Positions 2,616 through 55,855 of a stretch of 64,000 nucleotides of DNA are shown here, piece by piece. The position numbers and the translations under genes were made by a program. Under the pieces are notes generated by a model. That model saw only the letters and a program-made list of their open reading frames with translations. It was not told where the DNA came from and made no database searches. Origin of the DNA: Aptenodytes patagonicus (taxonomy: Eukaryota > Chordata > Aves > Sphenisciformes > Spheniscidae); contig NC_134949.1 in NCBI RefSeq assembly GCF_965638725.1, forward strand, positions 81,374,017-81,438,016, read 5' to 3'. Within the stretch, counting starts at the first letter, position 1, and the number at the start of each line of letters is the position of its first letter.

Positions 2616-2945
2616 AATCATAGAATCAAAGAATCACAGAATGGTTTGGGTTGGAAGGGACCTTAAGATCATCTAGTTCCAACCCTCCTGCCATGGGCAG
2701 GGACATCTTTGATCAGGCTGCTCAAAGCCCCAGCCAACCTGGCCTCGAACACTTCCAATGATAGGGCATCTTCAACTTCTCTGGGCAATGTTCCAGTGCC
2801 TCACCACCCTCAAAGTGAAGAACTTCTTCCTTATATCTAATCTAAACCTACCCTCTTTCAGTTTAAAGCCATTACCCCTTGCCCTATCACTACATGCCCT
2901 TGTAAAAAGTCCCTCTCCAGCTTTCTTGGAGGCCCCCTTCAGGTA

Positions 2946-4579
2946 CTAGAAGGCTGCAATAAGGTCCCCCCAAAGCCTTCTCTTCTCCAGGCTGAACAAC
3001 CCCAACTCTCTCAGCCTTTCTTCATAGGAGAGGTGTTCCAGCCCTTTGACCATTTTTGTGGCCCTCTTCTGGACGTGCTCCAACAGGTCCGTGTCTTTCC
3101 TGTGCTGGGGGCTCCAGAGCTGGACACAGTGCTCCAGGTAGGGTCTCACCAGAGCAGAGCAGAAGGGGAGAATCACCTCCCTCGACCTGCTGGTCACACT
3201 GCTTTTGATGCAGCCCAGGATACAGTTGGCCTTCTGGGCTGCAAGTGCACATTGCCAGGTCATGTTGAGCTTCTCATCAGCCAACACCCCCAAGTCCTTC
3301 TCGGCAGGGCTGCTCTCAATCCATTCTCCACCCAGCCTGTATTTGTGCTTGGGATTGCCCCGACCCATGTGCAAGACCTTGCACTTGGCCTTGTTGAACT
3401 TCATGAGGTTCGCACAGGCCCACCCCTCAAGCCTGTCACGGTCCCTCTGGACGGCATCCCTTCTCTCCAGCGTGTCAACCACACCACACAGCTTGGTGTC
3501 ATGGGCAAACTTGCTGAGGGTGCACTCAATCCCACTGTCCCTGTCGCCAACAAAGATGTTAAACAGTGCCGGTCCCAATAGCAACCCCTGAGGAACACCA
3601 CTCGTCACTGGTCTCCACTTGGACATCGAGACGTTGACCGCAACTCTGAGTGTGACCATCCAGCCAATTCCTTATCCACCGAGTGGTCCATGCATCAAAT
3701 CCATACCTCTCCAATTTAGAGACAAGGATGTTGTACAAAGTATTTGACACTGTCCCACATAAGTCCAGGTAGATGACACCAGTTGCTCTTCCCTTATCCA
3801 CCAATGCTGTAACCCTGTCGTAGAAGGCCACCAAATTTGTCAGGCATGATTTGCCCTTCGTGAAGCCATGTTGGCTTATTTTCCATGTGCCTTAGCATAG
3901 CTTCCAGGAGGATCTGCTCCATGATCTTCCCAGGCACAGAGGTGAGACTGACTGGCCTGTAGTTCCCTGGGTCTTCCTTTTTTCCCTTTTTAAAAATGGG
4001 GGTTATGTTTCCCCTTTTCCAGTCAGTGGGAACTTCACCGGACTGCCGCAACTTCTCAAATACGATGGATAGTGGCTTAGCAACTTCATCCGCCAGTTCC
4101 TTCAGGACCCGTGGATGGATCTCATCAGGTCCCATGGACTTGTGCACCTTCAGGTGTCTTAGATGGTCTCGAACCTGACGTCCTCCCACAGTGGGCGGCT
4201 CTTCATTCTCCCAGTCCCTGCCTTTGCCTTCTGCGGCTTGGGCGGTGAGGCTCGAGCACTTGCCGGTGAAGACTGAGGCAAAAAAGTCATTGAGTACCTC
4301 CACCTTCTCCATATCCCGGGTAACCAGGTCTCCTGTTTCATTGAGAGGGCCCACATTTTCCCTAGTCTTCCTTTTACCTCCAACGTACCTATAGAATCTT
4401 TTCTTGTTGCCTTTGATGTCCCTGGACAGATTTAATTCTATCAGGGCTTTAGTTTTCCTGACCTGATCCCTGGCTGCTTGGACAATTTCTCTGTTTTCCT
4501 CCCAGGCTACCTGTCCTTGCTTCCACCCTCTGTAGGCTTCCTTTTTGTGTTTGAGTTTGTCCAGGAGCTCCTTGTTCAT
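2946..4579 (-). pseudogene. CR1 ORF2 reverse transcriptase, broken
   Basis: Two overlapping minus-strand frames carry the RT. The upstream part (3794-4579) includes [14 protein letters not shown] and [17 protein letters not shown], the conserved fingers region of CR1 RT. The downstream part (2946-3659) includes TSGVPQG, the degenerate catalytic motif FAHD, and the C-terminal [14 protein letters not shown] and [13 protein letters not shown] blocks. Frame changes between them, plus the Asp-to-His change in the catalytic motif, mean it cannot make an active enzyme. It sits in LRP6 intron 2, in the same orientation as LRP6. Confidence 0.9.
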
Positions 4580-4630
4580 CCATGCAGGCCTCCTGGCATT
4601 TTTGCCTGACTTCCTCTCAGTTGGGATGCA

Positions 4631-5342
4631 TCACTCCTGAGCTTGGAGGAGGTGATCCTTGAATATTACCCAGCTTTCTTGGGCCCCTCTTCCCTCCAGG
4701 GCTTTGTCCCATGGCACTCTACCAAGCAGATCCCTGAAGAGGCCGAAGTCTGCTCTCCTGAAGTCCAGGGTAGTGAGCTTGCTGTGCGCCCTCCTTGGTG
4801 CCCTAAGGATCTTGAACTCCACCATTTCATGGTCACTGCAGCTCAGGCTGCCCTCAAGCTTCACATTCCCCACCAGCCCCTCCTTGTTGGTGAGAACAAG
4901 GTCCAGCATAGCACCGCTCCTCATTGGCTCCTCTACTGCTTGGAGAAGGAAGTTATCATCGACGCATTCCAGGAACCTCCCGGATTGCTTATGCCCTGCC
5001 GTATTGTCCCTCCAACAGATGTCGAGGTGGTTGAAGTCTCCCATGAGGACCAGGGCTTGTGAGCATGAGACTGCTCCTATTAGAGGGCCTCATCCACTCT
5101 GTCTTCCTGGTCGGGCAGCCTGTAGCAGACCCCCACTATAATGTCACCTGTCCCTGCCCTCCCTTTAATCCTGACCCATAAGCTCTTGGTCAGCTCCTCA
5201 TCCATCCCCAGGCAGAGCTCCATGCACTCCAGCTGGTCATTGACCTAGAGGGCAACACCCCCTCCTTGTCTCTCCTGCCTGTCCTTCCTAAAGAGCCTGT
5301 ATCCTTCCATTCCAACACTCCAGTCATAGGAACAGCGATCAG
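4631..5342 (-). pseudogene. CR1 ORF2 endonuclease fragment
   Basis: The minus-strand frame at 4631-5044 contains GDFNHLDICWRDN and SCSDHEMVEF, the C-terminal motifs of the APE-type endonuclease of CR1. Further upstream, to about 5342, another frame gives RKDRQERQGGGVAL and KSLWVRIKG, earlier endonuclease blocks. The N-terminal part is missing through 5' truncation, and there are stops between the pieces. Confidence 0.85.
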
Positions 5343-6649
5343 ACCTTTACTAAAGCAAATCTCTGGTTTCACTATTTACTACTTAGCCAAGCCGTTCTGC
5401 GCCTGCCAGCTCAATGATGAGTGCTGGTTTGAACACCACATCCAGCAATCCTTCTCCTCAGTCAAGCGACTACTTTTATGCATGTCTAGAGGCCAACAGA
5501 AATTCTCAGTCAGAACCTCCAGCCATCACTTCTGGCCACAATAAGCACATTATTAAATGCTGGTTAAAATAGCATGTCAGGCTATCGCAATAAAACAACA
5601 AATTGTTTAATCAGGAAAGCACAGTAAAATCAACACACAACCCGCGCTTTATACAGTTAACAGAACATTTCTGTGAGATCTCATGATCAGGTGAAGCACC
5701 AGTTTACCAACATATTCTGGATTGTTACCAACTGCTCAAGATCCATCATATTTCAAGTGTTTACAGTACGAAATAGGTGAGTTTTGTTTTACACATCTGA
5801 AAGCATTCTTCCAGGATCTTCTTATGGTTTGAGACCTACCGGAGCCCACTACTTTATAAACCACATATACCTCTTGAGCAATTTTTTCTCCCCCTTAATT
5901 TTTACCTCAGACTAACCATGCTTATATCTAGATCTAAACATGTACTTCACAGAAACATTTTTTTAATGTACACAAGGAAAATGCATGCTGAAAATAAAAA
6001 ATCAAAATAGCATCTTTTATTTCAGCTTACTCAGAAGTTTGCCAGAGTTTAACCTAAAATTTAGACAATGATATAAGATACAGTTTTATTCTACAACAAA
6101 TAAATGCATTTTTAGTAAAGAACCTTTTCCTTAAGAATTGAAGATATTTCTATGTATCACTACAATACACAGCAAAAGAATCATGCAAGCTTAATTTGCA
6201 AGATAGCTTGCTTTAATTTTAGGATAATTTCTAACAACCTGCTACAGCAGAGATAATGCTTATCCTTTAAATAAGAAAAAAAATTTTCACAGACATAGAT
6301 TTATTTAGGAAAAAAGCTCTCTGACTTAACACTGCTCTTAGTTGCATAATCTCCTATCTTTACCACTTCTTGCTTGAAGTGACAGAGAAAAGTTAATACA
6401 AGTAATACTTTATGCTGAAACACGGAATTAAGATGTAAAACTGAGAAATGACAAGGTTCCCATGAGAAATGAAAATGTAAAGTATGTGTTAAACAACCCT
6501 GGGGAAAGAAAGGAGGCCGGGGGGGGGGGGGGGCGTGGTGCAGAAGAGAGAGACCCAGAATGGATGCTGACTTTAAAAAAAAGGGTGGTGTTAGAAGGAT
6601 TCTAATTAAAGCATTAAGGTCCAGAAAATGTGTTACTATTCTTTGTATT
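5343..6649 (-). other. LRP6: LRP6 intron 2 between CR1 copies 1 and 2
   Basis: AT-rich unique-looking sequence with no gene. The only local feature is a 15-base G run at 6519-6533. Confidence 0.6.
6519..6533. repeat. Poly-G run, 15 bases
   Basis: Fifteen consecutive G on the plus strand, just upstream of CR1 copy 2. Confidence 0.85.
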
Positions 6650-8108
6650 TCATAGAATCATAGAATAGTCTGGGTTGGAAGGAACCTTTAAAGGTCATCT
6701 AGTCCAACCCCCCTGCAATGAGCAGGGACATCTTCAACTAGATCACGTTGCTCAGAGCCCCAGCCAACCTGACCTTGAATGTTTCCAGGGATGGGGCATC
6801 CACCACCTCTCTGGGCAACCTGTGCCAGTGCTTCACCACACTCAGCGTAAAAAATGTCTTCCTTCTATCTAGTCTAAATCTACCCTCTTTTAGTTTAAAG
6901 CCATTCCGCCTCGTCCTGTCGCAACAGGCCCTGCTAAAAAGTTTGTCCCCATCTTTTTTATAAGCCCCCTTTAAGTACTGATAGGCTGCAATAAGGTCCC
7001 CCCAAAGCCTTCTCTTCTCCAGGCTGAACAACCCCAACTCTCTCAGCCTTTCTTCATAGGAGAGGTGTTCCAGCCCTTTGACCATTTTTGTGGCCCTCTT
7101 CTGGACGTGCTCCAACAGGTCCGTGTCTTTCCTGTGCTGGGGGCTCCAGAGCTGGACACAGTGCTCCAGGTAGGGTCTCACCAGAGCAGAGCAGAAGGGG
7201 AGAATCACCTCCCTCGACCTGCTGGTCACACTGCTTTTGATGCAGCCCAGGATACAGTTGGCCTTCTGGGCTGCAAGTGCACATTGCCAGGTCATGTTGA
7301 GCTTCTCATCAGCCAACACCCCCAAGTCCTTCTCGGCAGGGCTGCTCTCAATCCATTCTCCACCCAGCCTGTATTTGTGCTTGGGATTGCCCCGACCCAT
7401 GTGCAAGACCTTGCACTTGGCCTTGTTGAACTTCATGAGGTTCGCACAGGCCCACCCCTCAGGCCTGTCACGGTCCCTCTGGACGGCATCCCTTCTCTCC
7501 AGCGTGTCAACCACACCACACAGCTTGGTGTCATGGGCAAACTTGCTGAGGGTGCACTCAAACCCACTATGTCATTGATGAAGATATTAAACAGTACCGG
7601 TCCCAATATGGGCCCCTGCGGGACGCCACTTGTCACCGATCTCCATCTGGACATTGAGCTGCTGACCACTACCCTCTGGATGCGACCATCCAACTAATTC
7701 CTCACCCACCAGACAGTCCACCCATCAAATCCATACCTCTCCAGTTTAGAGAGAAGGATGTTGTGGTGGACCATGTCAAAGGCCTTACAGAAGTCCAGAT
7801 AGACGACATCTGTAGCCCTTCCCGTGTCCACTGATGTAGTCACGCCATCACAGAAGGCCACTAGGTTGGTCAGGCAGGACTTGCCCTTGGTGAAGCCATG
7901 TCAGCTGACTCAAATCACCTCCCTGTCCTCCATGTGCCTTAGCATAGCTTCTAGAAGGATCTGTTCCATGATCTTCCCAGGCACAGAGGTGAGACTGACT
8001 GGCCTGTAGTTCCCCGGGTCCTCCTTTTTTCCCTTTTTAAAAATGGGGGTTATGCTTCCCCTTTTCCAGTCAGTTTGGAGGAGGTGATCCTTGAATATTA
8101 GCCAATTT
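6650..8108 (-). mobile_element. CR1 LINE copy 2 (5'-truncated, internal deletion)
   Basis: The 3' end lies at 6650 (plus strand CATAGAATCATAGAATAG, then GGGTTGGAAGG). The minus strand encodes the RT C-terminal half in one long frame (6738-7514, 258 residues, ending in the CR1-typical [18 protein letters not shown]). Outside 6983-7560 it differs clearly from copy 1. Relative to copy 1 it lacks the segment equivalent to 4028-4642: at 8074/8075 the RT block TDWKRG is joined directly to the endonuclease-side block IFKDHLLQ. Only about 35 bp of sequence follow before homology stops near 8108. The RT catalytic motif is FAHD, as in copy 1. Confidence 0.93.
6738..7514 (-). pseudogene. CR1 ORF2 reverse transcriptase C-terminal fragment
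   Basis: An open frame of 258 codons covers the RT thumb/connection and C-terminal tail: [50 protein letters not shown], and a final [17 protein letters not shown] block. There is no in-frame upstream continuation through the catalytic motif, and the element is 5'-truncated, so this is a relic rather than a host gene. Confidence 0.9.
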
Positions 8109-15289: not shown

Positions 15290-16969
15290 AATCTAGGCAT
15301 ATTGAAGTGTTTACTCCCACTGCTTTAACAGATCATCAGTATGGAAAAAGTTATGAGTTCACTTTACCTTTGATCTATTTCATTTTTCTTCTTGCAGTTT
15401 CCTCTTCATGTAAAGTATTATGAAAGAGTGCAAAAGTACATAATCATCTAGTTTTGATCACTGAGCATATTACTGTGCATATTCGGAAAATACAAATACT
15501 CTTCTAAAAAAGACCAACTGGCCTGACAACAGTGCATTATTCCTAACTAATGAGAATCTCTGTCTCTCTGGCTACAAGCCAAATCAAAAACATTTTGATT
15601 GCGTTTTTCCTCCCTTTTCTCTCTGTTTTGGGATGGTGGGTGGAAGGGACATGAGCGTTACATCTTTTTTTACATTCTTAAATGCTTTTAGAATCTAATA
15701 AAATGAAACTAATGCTATCATTGGCTCCAATTTATAAGTTGTAAAGAGATAGGAAAAGCATAAATCCATCCTTTTGTTATTTCCAAAGCTGGAAATATAA
15801 GTAATGCAAAAGAAACATCTTTCCTGTTTATATGTTGTCAAAGGCCCATTGAAACTGTGGAAGAAAATATTCAAGATACGGTATTTCTATGAAGTTCAGG
15901 AAAGAAGCCATGTTTCACAAAGAGACTTTTTTTCTTTTGGAGGAAAAGACCCAAACATGCAAGTTCAACAGATTATATTATAAAGAAGCTGCAAGCAGCT
16001 AAAACAGTCCTCATCTTTCCAAAGAAACAATGCATTGATTTCTCACCTCAAAAAACTGACTGAAAAAAGTATGTGAAATGGCAGTACAATAGATTCATTT
16101 TCTTGCTTGTTCAGGGAAAAAAGATAGTATAAATAAGATCTACACTACAGATCAAAAAAAACTATCAAAAGATTACACAGCGTCAAGGATATTCCATTAG
16201 TCTTTCACTTCAGGAGACCAGTCTCTTTATCACAGATGACTACCTACAGGGTAACCTCAAGCTAGCCATTTATGTAACATCACCAAAACCACCACTGAAC
16301 TTAGCATTTCTGGCAACCACAGCTTTGTCCCAAGAACAGAACAAAAAGGTTATACAGTAAGTCACATCCAGGGACTGAAATGAGAGCTGAGAAAAATTAG
16401 ACCTGTTCTAGAATGGGCTAAGGCAAAACAGGACTTTTTAAAACAAAAGTTCCCTGAAGGGTGGGGAGAGGAACCCTTCTGTAAATTTTCTGGTTAAGTG
16501 CTAAAACATGTCTCAAATTGTTATTAATACAGCGTATTGATTTCTCTCATTTCTGCTTCAATAAAGCATAAATATCAACAATGAACAAAGCTCCAGAAAA
16601 CTCTGCTACTTGACACTGTAGAGAGGCACAAGCCTGTCCACAGCCAGCTGATAGCCTTTCACGCAGATTATAAGAGATTTTACATTACAACTTCTCCATC
16701 TCTCTTCATCTTCTGCACTACTGCCAAAATAAGTTTCTAGTACTTTTTTTTAAACATCTGACAATTCCTAGTTGTTCACAAACCAATATGAATGCAATTT
16801 CAGAAGTGCAAATTGTTTTCAAATCACACTAATAGAAAGAGAAGCAAATAATGCAAAATGGCTTAGGATAACATCGATAACAATACCATCGCTTATTTAA
16901 AATCATTCAATAAACAAAAACTAGCAGAAATTTTAATATTTGTAATTATTTTGTCTTAACAAAGACTTA

Positions 16970-20487
<3,518 letters not shown>

Positions 20488-49857: not shown

Positions 49858-55855
<5,998 letters not shown>

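Follow-up and report, generated by a model that had tools for sequence, protein, structure and literature searches.

Ectopic gene conversion is already well known for Alu elements. As described in passages of two papers (PMC8230782, PMC6598467), non-allelic conversion takes place there between neighboring repeats, mostly within ~10 kb of each other, and leaves mosaics of diagnostic sites together with shared non-diagnostic mutations. Interlocus conversion tracts, in the part of a further source that treats them, measure ~50 to several hundred bp in yeast and ~290 bp in hamster cells (PMC3924818). The two CR1 copies considered here, from a 64,000-nucleotide stretch of the genome of the penguin Aptenodytes patagonicus (the window), are very probably a case of this known type of event. 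They share with primate Alu conversion, as those passages present it, the proximity of the repeats, the mosaic of diagnostic sites, and the shared non-diagnostic mutations. The case differs from Alu in that CR1 belongs to the LINEs of birds, that divergence within the pair is ~14% in the patch (estimated from the two subfamilies) and 23% outside it, and that the tract exceeds the length of a whole Alu and draws on both subfamilies. Its length is of the usual order for interlocus conversion between duplicated genes, to judge from the tract lengths just quoted; unlike duplicated genes, the partners are separate retrotransposon insertions, and their homology stops at the end of the element. Source elements that recombine or switch template can likewise found chimeric LINE subfamilies, with halves from different subfamilies, but such an origin would not give two old neighboring insertions one private near-identical patch. 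No report of conversion between CR1 copies was found in the titles and opening abstract lines of the papers searched, which came from outside subscription journals and preprints. Counts of the phrase "gene conversion" are 0 in each of three CR1 papers (PMC8665684, PMC4316615, and PMC2169234) and 18 in PMC9214253, passages of which concern biased conversion and not CR1 pairs.

Copy 1, a type 1 element delimited by self-comparison and reading of the sequence, occupies approximately 2616-5340, with its 3′ end at the low coordinate and its 5′ end truncated. Copy 2 belongs to the type 2 subfamily and occupies 6650-8103, with ~570-600 bp missing inside the element at 8074. The first-pass annotation had described nearby repeats in the same orientation, and both copies do lie on the minus strand, 4 kb apart; of the two reasons that it offered for divergence of the flanks, different subfamilies or old insertions, both hold. 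The non-repeat spacer between them (5600-6500, 901 bp) is single-copy in the host genome, where its one match is itself. Segmental duplication was rejected, as self-comparison shows no homology beyond the CR1 copies and the spacer is single-copy. A Pfam search gave an RVT_1 match in copy 1 (2949-3659; E = 3.6e-7, 30.5 bits, just above the cut-off of 29.6), which we take to be the CR1-type reverse transcriptase, and no family for the copy 2 open reading frame at 6741-7514. The 3′ ends carry short octamer-like repeats, here resembling TTCTATGA, and 5′ truncation can be read in the sequence; the CR1 3′ octamer is given in part of one source as TTCTGTGA (PMC2612034). The pair appears to sit within an intron of LRP6. 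Neither the patch, searched against plasmids, nor the window, scanned with Rfam, gave a match.

Base-by-base comparison bears out the reported identity of 577/578 positions at a constant offset of 4,032 (2951-3528 against 6983-7560), as well as its single mismatch, A3430 against G7462. The left edge at 2951/6983 stands, whereas the right edge at 3528/7560 was placed one base short, 3529/7561 being also matched; the first mismatch to the right is T3530 against A7562. The corrected patch thus spans 2951-3529 in copy 1 and 6983-7561 in copy 2, both on the minus strand, with 578/579 sites the same. At its only difference, A is found in 56/56 other CR1 copies read there, and G7462 is therefore the new base; provided that the assembly is right, the sole later mutation sits in copy 2. 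The flanks are strongly diverged and the edges sharp, as had been claimed, with 157/672 aligned flank sites differing. By segment, identity was 84.5% (2626-2800) and 76.7% (2801-2950) to the left and 76.1% (3529-3720) and 73.3% (3776-3880) to the right, a range of 73.3-84.5% that is far below the ~99% that would contradict a bounded patch. The chance of at most one difference in 578 sites is ~3e-65 at the flank difference rate and 1.4e-9 at a rate of 4%, approximately that of the most conserved block. A Sawyer-type run test found 373 consecutive concordant polymorphic columns, compared with at most 81 in 20,000 shuffles. Near-identity is therefore confined to a sharply bounded block of two homologous elements that have otherwise diverged, as in a conversion tract. 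A further candidate tract, 3920-4019 against 7967-8066 (97/100), was rejected because this block is conserved between subfamilies generally, positions 3881-4030 of copy 1 having 96.0-98.7% identity to the type 2 copies L032-L060, and it is not counted as part of the patch.

Near-identical copies of the patch in the host genome are confined to these two: of 6,958 candidates, 40 were scored, and the next best of these reached 91%. Rare bases, defined by a limit of 3% over 89 reference copies, tell the same story of a bounded exchange: 11 are shared and 1 is unshared in the patch, against 1 shared and 31 unshared in the flanks (p = 1.8e-8), a count that omits 3730-3775 (16 unshared) and 3881-4030 (5 unshared). 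An earlier tally had put the shared bases at 15 in the patch, with 1 unshared, and at 1 in the flanks, with 52 unshared; the shared bases at 3100 and 3131, at first counted as rare, occur in 7/12 and 2/12 further type 2 copies. The reference set L003-L030 consisted of the closest matches to the patch itself and so carries a bias; the added references were picked on the copy 1 flanks only (L061-L079) or on the left half only (L084-L095), and L080, fetched for the copy 1 flank, proved to be type 2 and was placed in that group. Over the 89 copies, shared derived bases fall inside the patch and unshared ones outside it, the pattern looked for in a conversion tract.

The subfamily make-up of the patch is more complex than that of a simple transfer. 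At sites diagnostic of subfamily, the two copies differ in type at 33/38 in the left flank, 0/39 in the patch, and 42/48 in the right flank, with 3730-3775, which looks inverted and where 4/8 sites differ, set aside. The left half (2951-3235; 6983-7267 in copy 2) is type 2-like in both copies: 8/12 diagnostic sites are type 2, 3/12 type 1, and 1/12 neither, and its close relatives, sought genome-wide, are type 2 in 12/12 of those fetched from 38 listed, at 92.3-93.7% identity. The right half (3236-3528; 7268-7560) is type 1 in both, with 25/27 diagnostic sites of that type and a mean identity of 91.0% with type 1 copies against 83.6% with type 2 copies; 0/28 type 2 copies have a type 1 right half. 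The switch zone at 3232-3242 (7264-7274) lies between the last type 2 site, 3231, and the first type 1 site, 3243; beyond it, the neighboring sites 3303 and 3304 are again type 2. Trees of the left and of the right flank put copy 1 with the type 1 copies and copy 2 inside the type 2 clade (support 100), whereas in the right-half tree both copies are within type 1 (100) as sisters (99). In the left-half tree, the nearest neighbors of the pair are a few type 1 copies (supports of 53, 50, and 76), and this set adjoins the type 2 clade (70) without being inside it. The patch tree thus disagrees with the flank trees, strongly for the right half and with a weakly supported placement for the left. 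Changes in the right half show no GC bias (16 weak-to-strong against 18 strong-to-weak), on which ground GC-biased conversion was rejected; the density of departures from the agreed base was abandoned as a guide to the donor, since the copies are too alike.

Rare bases, diagnostic sites, and trees together support the original claim of ectopic conversion between direct repeats. The patch is not simply the sequence of one donor, as its halves belong to different subfamilies. We consider ectopic gene conversion between the two CR1 copies to be by far the best reading, with a probability of roughly 0.9. Given a correct assembly, two different elements hold, in the patch, a recent copy of one common sequence, and the right half of the patch carries the subfamily of copy 1 in both. 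The near-identity would follow from one copy having recently overwritten part of the other. Because the right half is type 1 in both copies, we infer that it moved from copy 1 to copy 2, overwriting it there; the type 2-like left half would have come from the side of copy 2, hence movement in two directions. Probably, then, the exchange ran both ways or the donor was chimeric beforehand. In the mechanism that we propose, the two CR1 insertions are old, belong to different subfamilies, and point the same way at a distance of 4 kb; a recent break or stalled fork in one copy would then have been repaired on the other as template, such that 579 bp became alike in both. Two-way transfer could reflect one mosaic repair event or two events; in an alternative order, copy 1 would already have been chimeric when it acted as donor. 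The neutral rate in birds is ~1.9e-9 per site per year, and at this rate one difference in 578 bp corresponds to ~0.5 million years (95% Poisson range, ~0.01-2.5). Identity between the subfamilies is ~86% across the tract, ~70% just to the left, and ~79% just to the right, and the tract appears to sit where they are most alike, as expected if strand exchange needs homology. The expected natural difference between the copies in the patch, ~14% as estimated from subfamilies, is high for efficient recombination; the optimum similarity is given as 89-100% in part of one paper (PMC8230782).

A one-way variant, in which a chimeric copy 1 with a type 2-like left half overwrote 579 bp of copy 2 once, is somewhat less than an even bet. 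It is a sub-case of the gene conversion reading. A single event is simpler than two, and there are type 1 copies whose left half carries stretches of type 2 states: among 46, two carry at least 6/11 such states (L025, 8/11; L075, 7/11) and six others carry 4 or 5, and two-way exchange is for this reason not proved. The left half is, however, nearer to type 2 copies, with a best match of 93.7% and a mean of 91.2%; no type 1 copy read, chimeras included, exceeds 90.1%, and the two type 1 copies with at least six type 2 states reach only 89.5 and 87.4% identity to it.

Apart from conversion, one of the two patches may be a duplicate of the other introduced by misassembly or by consensus polishing, since short-read polishing could err where similar repeats lie only 4 kb apart. 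We regard this as improbable: the window contains no N, the contig is 227 Mb long, the spacer is single-copy, a later single-base change exists in the patch, and scoring of 40 of the 6,958 candidates gave no third near-identical copy. Moreover, plain overwriting of one copy would not yield halves from different subfamilies unless copy 1 was chimeric, and a second CR1 pair on another contig has the same sign, although polishing could act there too. The presence of CR1 chimeras in the host genome lends some plausibility to a young chimeric subfamily that inserted twice, or that converted both copies from elsewhere; yet the flanks differ within the same element in both copies, and across the patch the other copies stay at or below 91% (40 scored of 6,958 candidates), making this most improbable and, to the extent that the assembly is complete and the best matches are among those 40, refuted. 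Scarcely credible is purifying selection on the 192-codon reverse-transcriptase frame, which runs uninterrupted across both patches, with in-frame stops outside at 2946-2948 and 3672-3674 (copy 1) and at 6738-6740 and 7572-7574 (copy 2). The same frame is open in 32/67 other copies with a near full-length patch, and its openness was rejected as a sign of selection; selection would, moreover, give neither rare bases confined to this pair nor sharp edges, and the other copies scored (40 of 6,958 candidates) reach at most 91%.

The second pair, L076/L077, bears the sign of conversion over ~2.9 kb, and the 3′ edge of its tract lies at most 10 bp from an edge of the patch in the window. A third copy, L083 (on C34), is 96-100% identical to L077 in most of the 3′ 500 bp and less so beyond. 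Clean conversion-like pairs number two among 79 aligned rows (3,081 pairs), which are best matches and not a random sample. The window pair, L076/L077, L083, and the chimeric type 1 copies are possible signs of regular exchange. We tentatively suggest, at slightly under even odds, that conversion between neighboring CR1 copies may be a regular process in birds, which runs both ways, operates even between subfamilies ~14% apart, and leaves tracts whose ends lie where homology fades, and that many chimeric CR1 copies may have been made in this way and not only by the history of source elements. The two clean pairs suggest that a genome-wide count is feasible and worthwhile. CR1 copies serve as phylogenetic markers in birds, and their ages and subfamily trees assume that each copy evolves independently. 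Where two old copies have recently exchanged sequence, that assumption fails over part of the CR1 element.

Direct comparison of the two CR1 elements, copy 1 (2616-5340) and copy 2 (6650-8103), bears out the 577/578 identity that the first-pass annotation had claimed for a patch at a constant offset of 4,032, the sole exception being A3430 versus G7462. G7462 is the new base, with A present in all 56 other copies read at that site; an age estimate for the patch is based on a mutation rate assumed as background. The flanks are diverged, as had also been proposed, with 157 of 672 aligned sites differing (2626-2950 plus 3529-3880). The left edge of the patch (2951/6983) stands, and alignment and column counts move the right edge by one base, to 3529/7561. 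The first differences outside the patch are A2950 versus T6982 on the left and T3530 versus A7562 on the right.

CR1 copies fetched from elsewhere in the host genome, the best 40 candidates being scored in each search, provide the context for this patch. Those chosen as most like the upstream flank of copy 2 (L032-L060, 94-95%) and those chosen as most like the flanks of copy 1 (L061-L079) fall into two types, and the best matches to the whole patch (L003-L030) are, with few exceptions, type 1 wherever they extend into the flanks, the 3' flank of L025 being intermediate. Mean identities were taken over 89 reference copies, which are best matches rather than a random sample. For the 3' flank they are 90.6% to type 1 and 80.4% to type 2 in copy 1, and 83.0% and 92.3% in copy 2; for the upstream flank (3529-3720) the corresponding values are 89.5% and 77.5%, and 75.1% and 93.1%. 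The left half of the patch (2951-3235) gives 87.5% to type 1 and 91.2% to type 2 in both copies, and the right half (3236-3528) gives 91.0% and 83.6% in copy 1, and 90.7% and 83.3% in copy 2.

At diagnostic sites, defined between L061-L079 and L032-L060 as at least 75% fixed in each, the copies are of differing type at 33 of 38 positions in the left flank and, leaving aside 3730-3775, at 42 of 48 in the right. None of the 12 sites in the left half of the patch differs (both copies are type 2 at eight, type 1 at three and neither at one), nor does any of the 27 in the right half (25 type 1; 3303 and 3304 type 2). Bases carried by no more than 3% of the 89 references are shared in 11 cases and unshared in one (G7462) within the patch, as against 1 shared and 31 unshared in the two flanks combined (Fisher p = 1.8e-8), a count that omits 3730-3775 (16 unshared, 0 shared) and 3881-4030 (5 unshared, 0 shared). 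Within 3730-3775, the copies are of differing type at 4 of 8 diagnostic sites, and ~28-40 bp of copy 1 resembles the reverse complement of other copies, with 15 of 34 agreed sites departing; this reads like a small in-place inversion. At 8066-8103, copy 2 is missing ~570-600 bp of CR1 sequence, and past the gap some 30 bp from farther upstream in the element remains.

Trees of the flanks and patch halves were built by a quick method. In the left-flank tree, copy 1 lies among type 1 copies and copy 2 in the type 2 clade (support 100), where the one type 1 row would be L076, judging by its 3' flank; the right-flank tree places both copies in the same way (supports 100 and 100). In the right-half tree, the two copies pair (99) inside type 1, the types being split at 100. 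The left-half tree is weakly supported: the copies pair beside a few type 1 copies (53, 50, 76), and this set adjoins 27 type 2 copies (70).

Among the best 40 of 6,958 candidates for the patch, only the two window copies match above 91%, and the spacer (5600-6500) occurs once in the host genome. On these grounds, neither the patch search nor the spacer search points to a third donor in the assembly, to a larger duplication or to a contig from an alternate haplotype.

The halves appear to differ in origin. The left half alone matches 38 other places at 92-94% (best 40 of 5,143), of which 12 were fetched, the ten best plus two more. Each of the 12 has the type 2 state at all, or at most, of the left-half sites; those long enough to cover the right half are type 2 there as well. 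Their flanks are nearer copy 2 than copy 1. They match the left half at 92.3-93.7%, much like the copy 2 flanks (3', 89.1-93.7%, 11 copies; upstream, 86.2-94.6%, 6 copies), which suggests that the left half is native to the subfamily of copy 2 and the right half to that of copy 1. Two type 1 states of the left half also occur among these relatives (3041 in 5 of 12, 3045 in 2 of 12) and are thus weaker as evidence for type 1. Transfer of the right half from copy 1 to copy 2 is well supported, and copy 2 would be the simplest source of the left half of copy 1. A serious alternative is that copy 1 was chimeric beforehand and itself supplied the left half. Such chimeras exist, 2 of 46 type 1 copies carrying at least 6 of 11 type 2 left-half states, whereas a type 1 right half occurs in 0 of 28 type 2 copies; the direction is therefore supported for the right half and less settled for the left. 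Eight type 1 copies (L025, L075, L010, L012, L005, L004, L009 and L073) have at least 4 of the 11 type 2 states in the left-half region, possibly through further conversion or source-element recombination.

A scan of 79 aligned rows (3,081 pairs) for a block of at least 99% together with one of at most 88% in the same pair returned two, the window pair and L076/L077. The latter lie ~36 kb apart in opposite orientation on contig C34 (L076/L082 at ~58.13 Mb, L077/L081 at ~58.09 Mb). Their match (769-4046 of L081 versus 2144-5421 of L082) is limited to the element, with no further match across the 6.0 and 6.5 kb retrieved. Some 2.9 kb is near-identical (>99.8%; 4 mismatches across 29 windows, each of 100 columns, starting at 400). 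The preceding windows, on the 3' side, are at 74-84%, and the boundary on that side, which corresponds to 2959/2960 in copy 1 coordinates, is at most 10 bp from that of the window pair. When 1,001 bp of L082 was searched (best 40 of 9,133), only this pair was near 100%, followed by a C34 copy at 94% and then others at or below 90%. That third C34 copy, L083 (57.6 Mb, ~490-530 kb away), shares 96-100% identity with L077 across five windows in the 3' part and mostly 81-97% farther on, a pattern that looks like an older partial exchange. Neighbours on contig C33 (L026/L027, L035/L036, L055/L056, L058/L059) are at least 96.7% alike in all comparable blocks, as duplications would be, and were excluded as conversion pairs. 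CR1 places at ~4.5, 5.3 and 8.6 Mb correspond between C33 (48 Mb) and C34 (90 Mb), which may be W and Z.

The window lies on contig C1 (81374017-81438016) of an assembly of 618 contigs and 1.35 Gb. An ORF at 16967-17353 (-), the same strand as both CR1 copies, aligns end to end with LRP6 (412 bits for LRP6 chains). Total scores are higher for some larger LRP2 and LRP4 chains, in which 8 or 9 stretches match. The ORF includes an LDL-receptor class B repeat. We take it to be LRP6 exon 2, which would place the CR1 pair in the next intron. A 338-aa ORF at 49858-50874 (-) has a weak DUF5585 match and resembles MANSC1, which would suit an LRP6 neighbourhood.

Mean similarity between types 1 and 2 across the reference copies rises from 69.5% (2900-2950) to 89.6% (2951-3000), a clear cliff at the left edge, and falls in a milder step from 87.2% (3479-3528) to 78.7% (3529-3578) at the right. 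It is 86.2% over the whole patch, dipping to 77-81% at 3250-3349, and the tract occupies most of the stretch with the highest subfamily similarity, a position that fits recombination dependent on homology. Published work describes gene conversion among Alus as established, mostly within ~10 kb (PMC8230782; PMC6598467), with an optimum similarity of 89-100% (PMC8230782) and usual tracts of ~50 to several hundred bp (PMC3924818). The window case fits this background, although its partners are unusually diverged.
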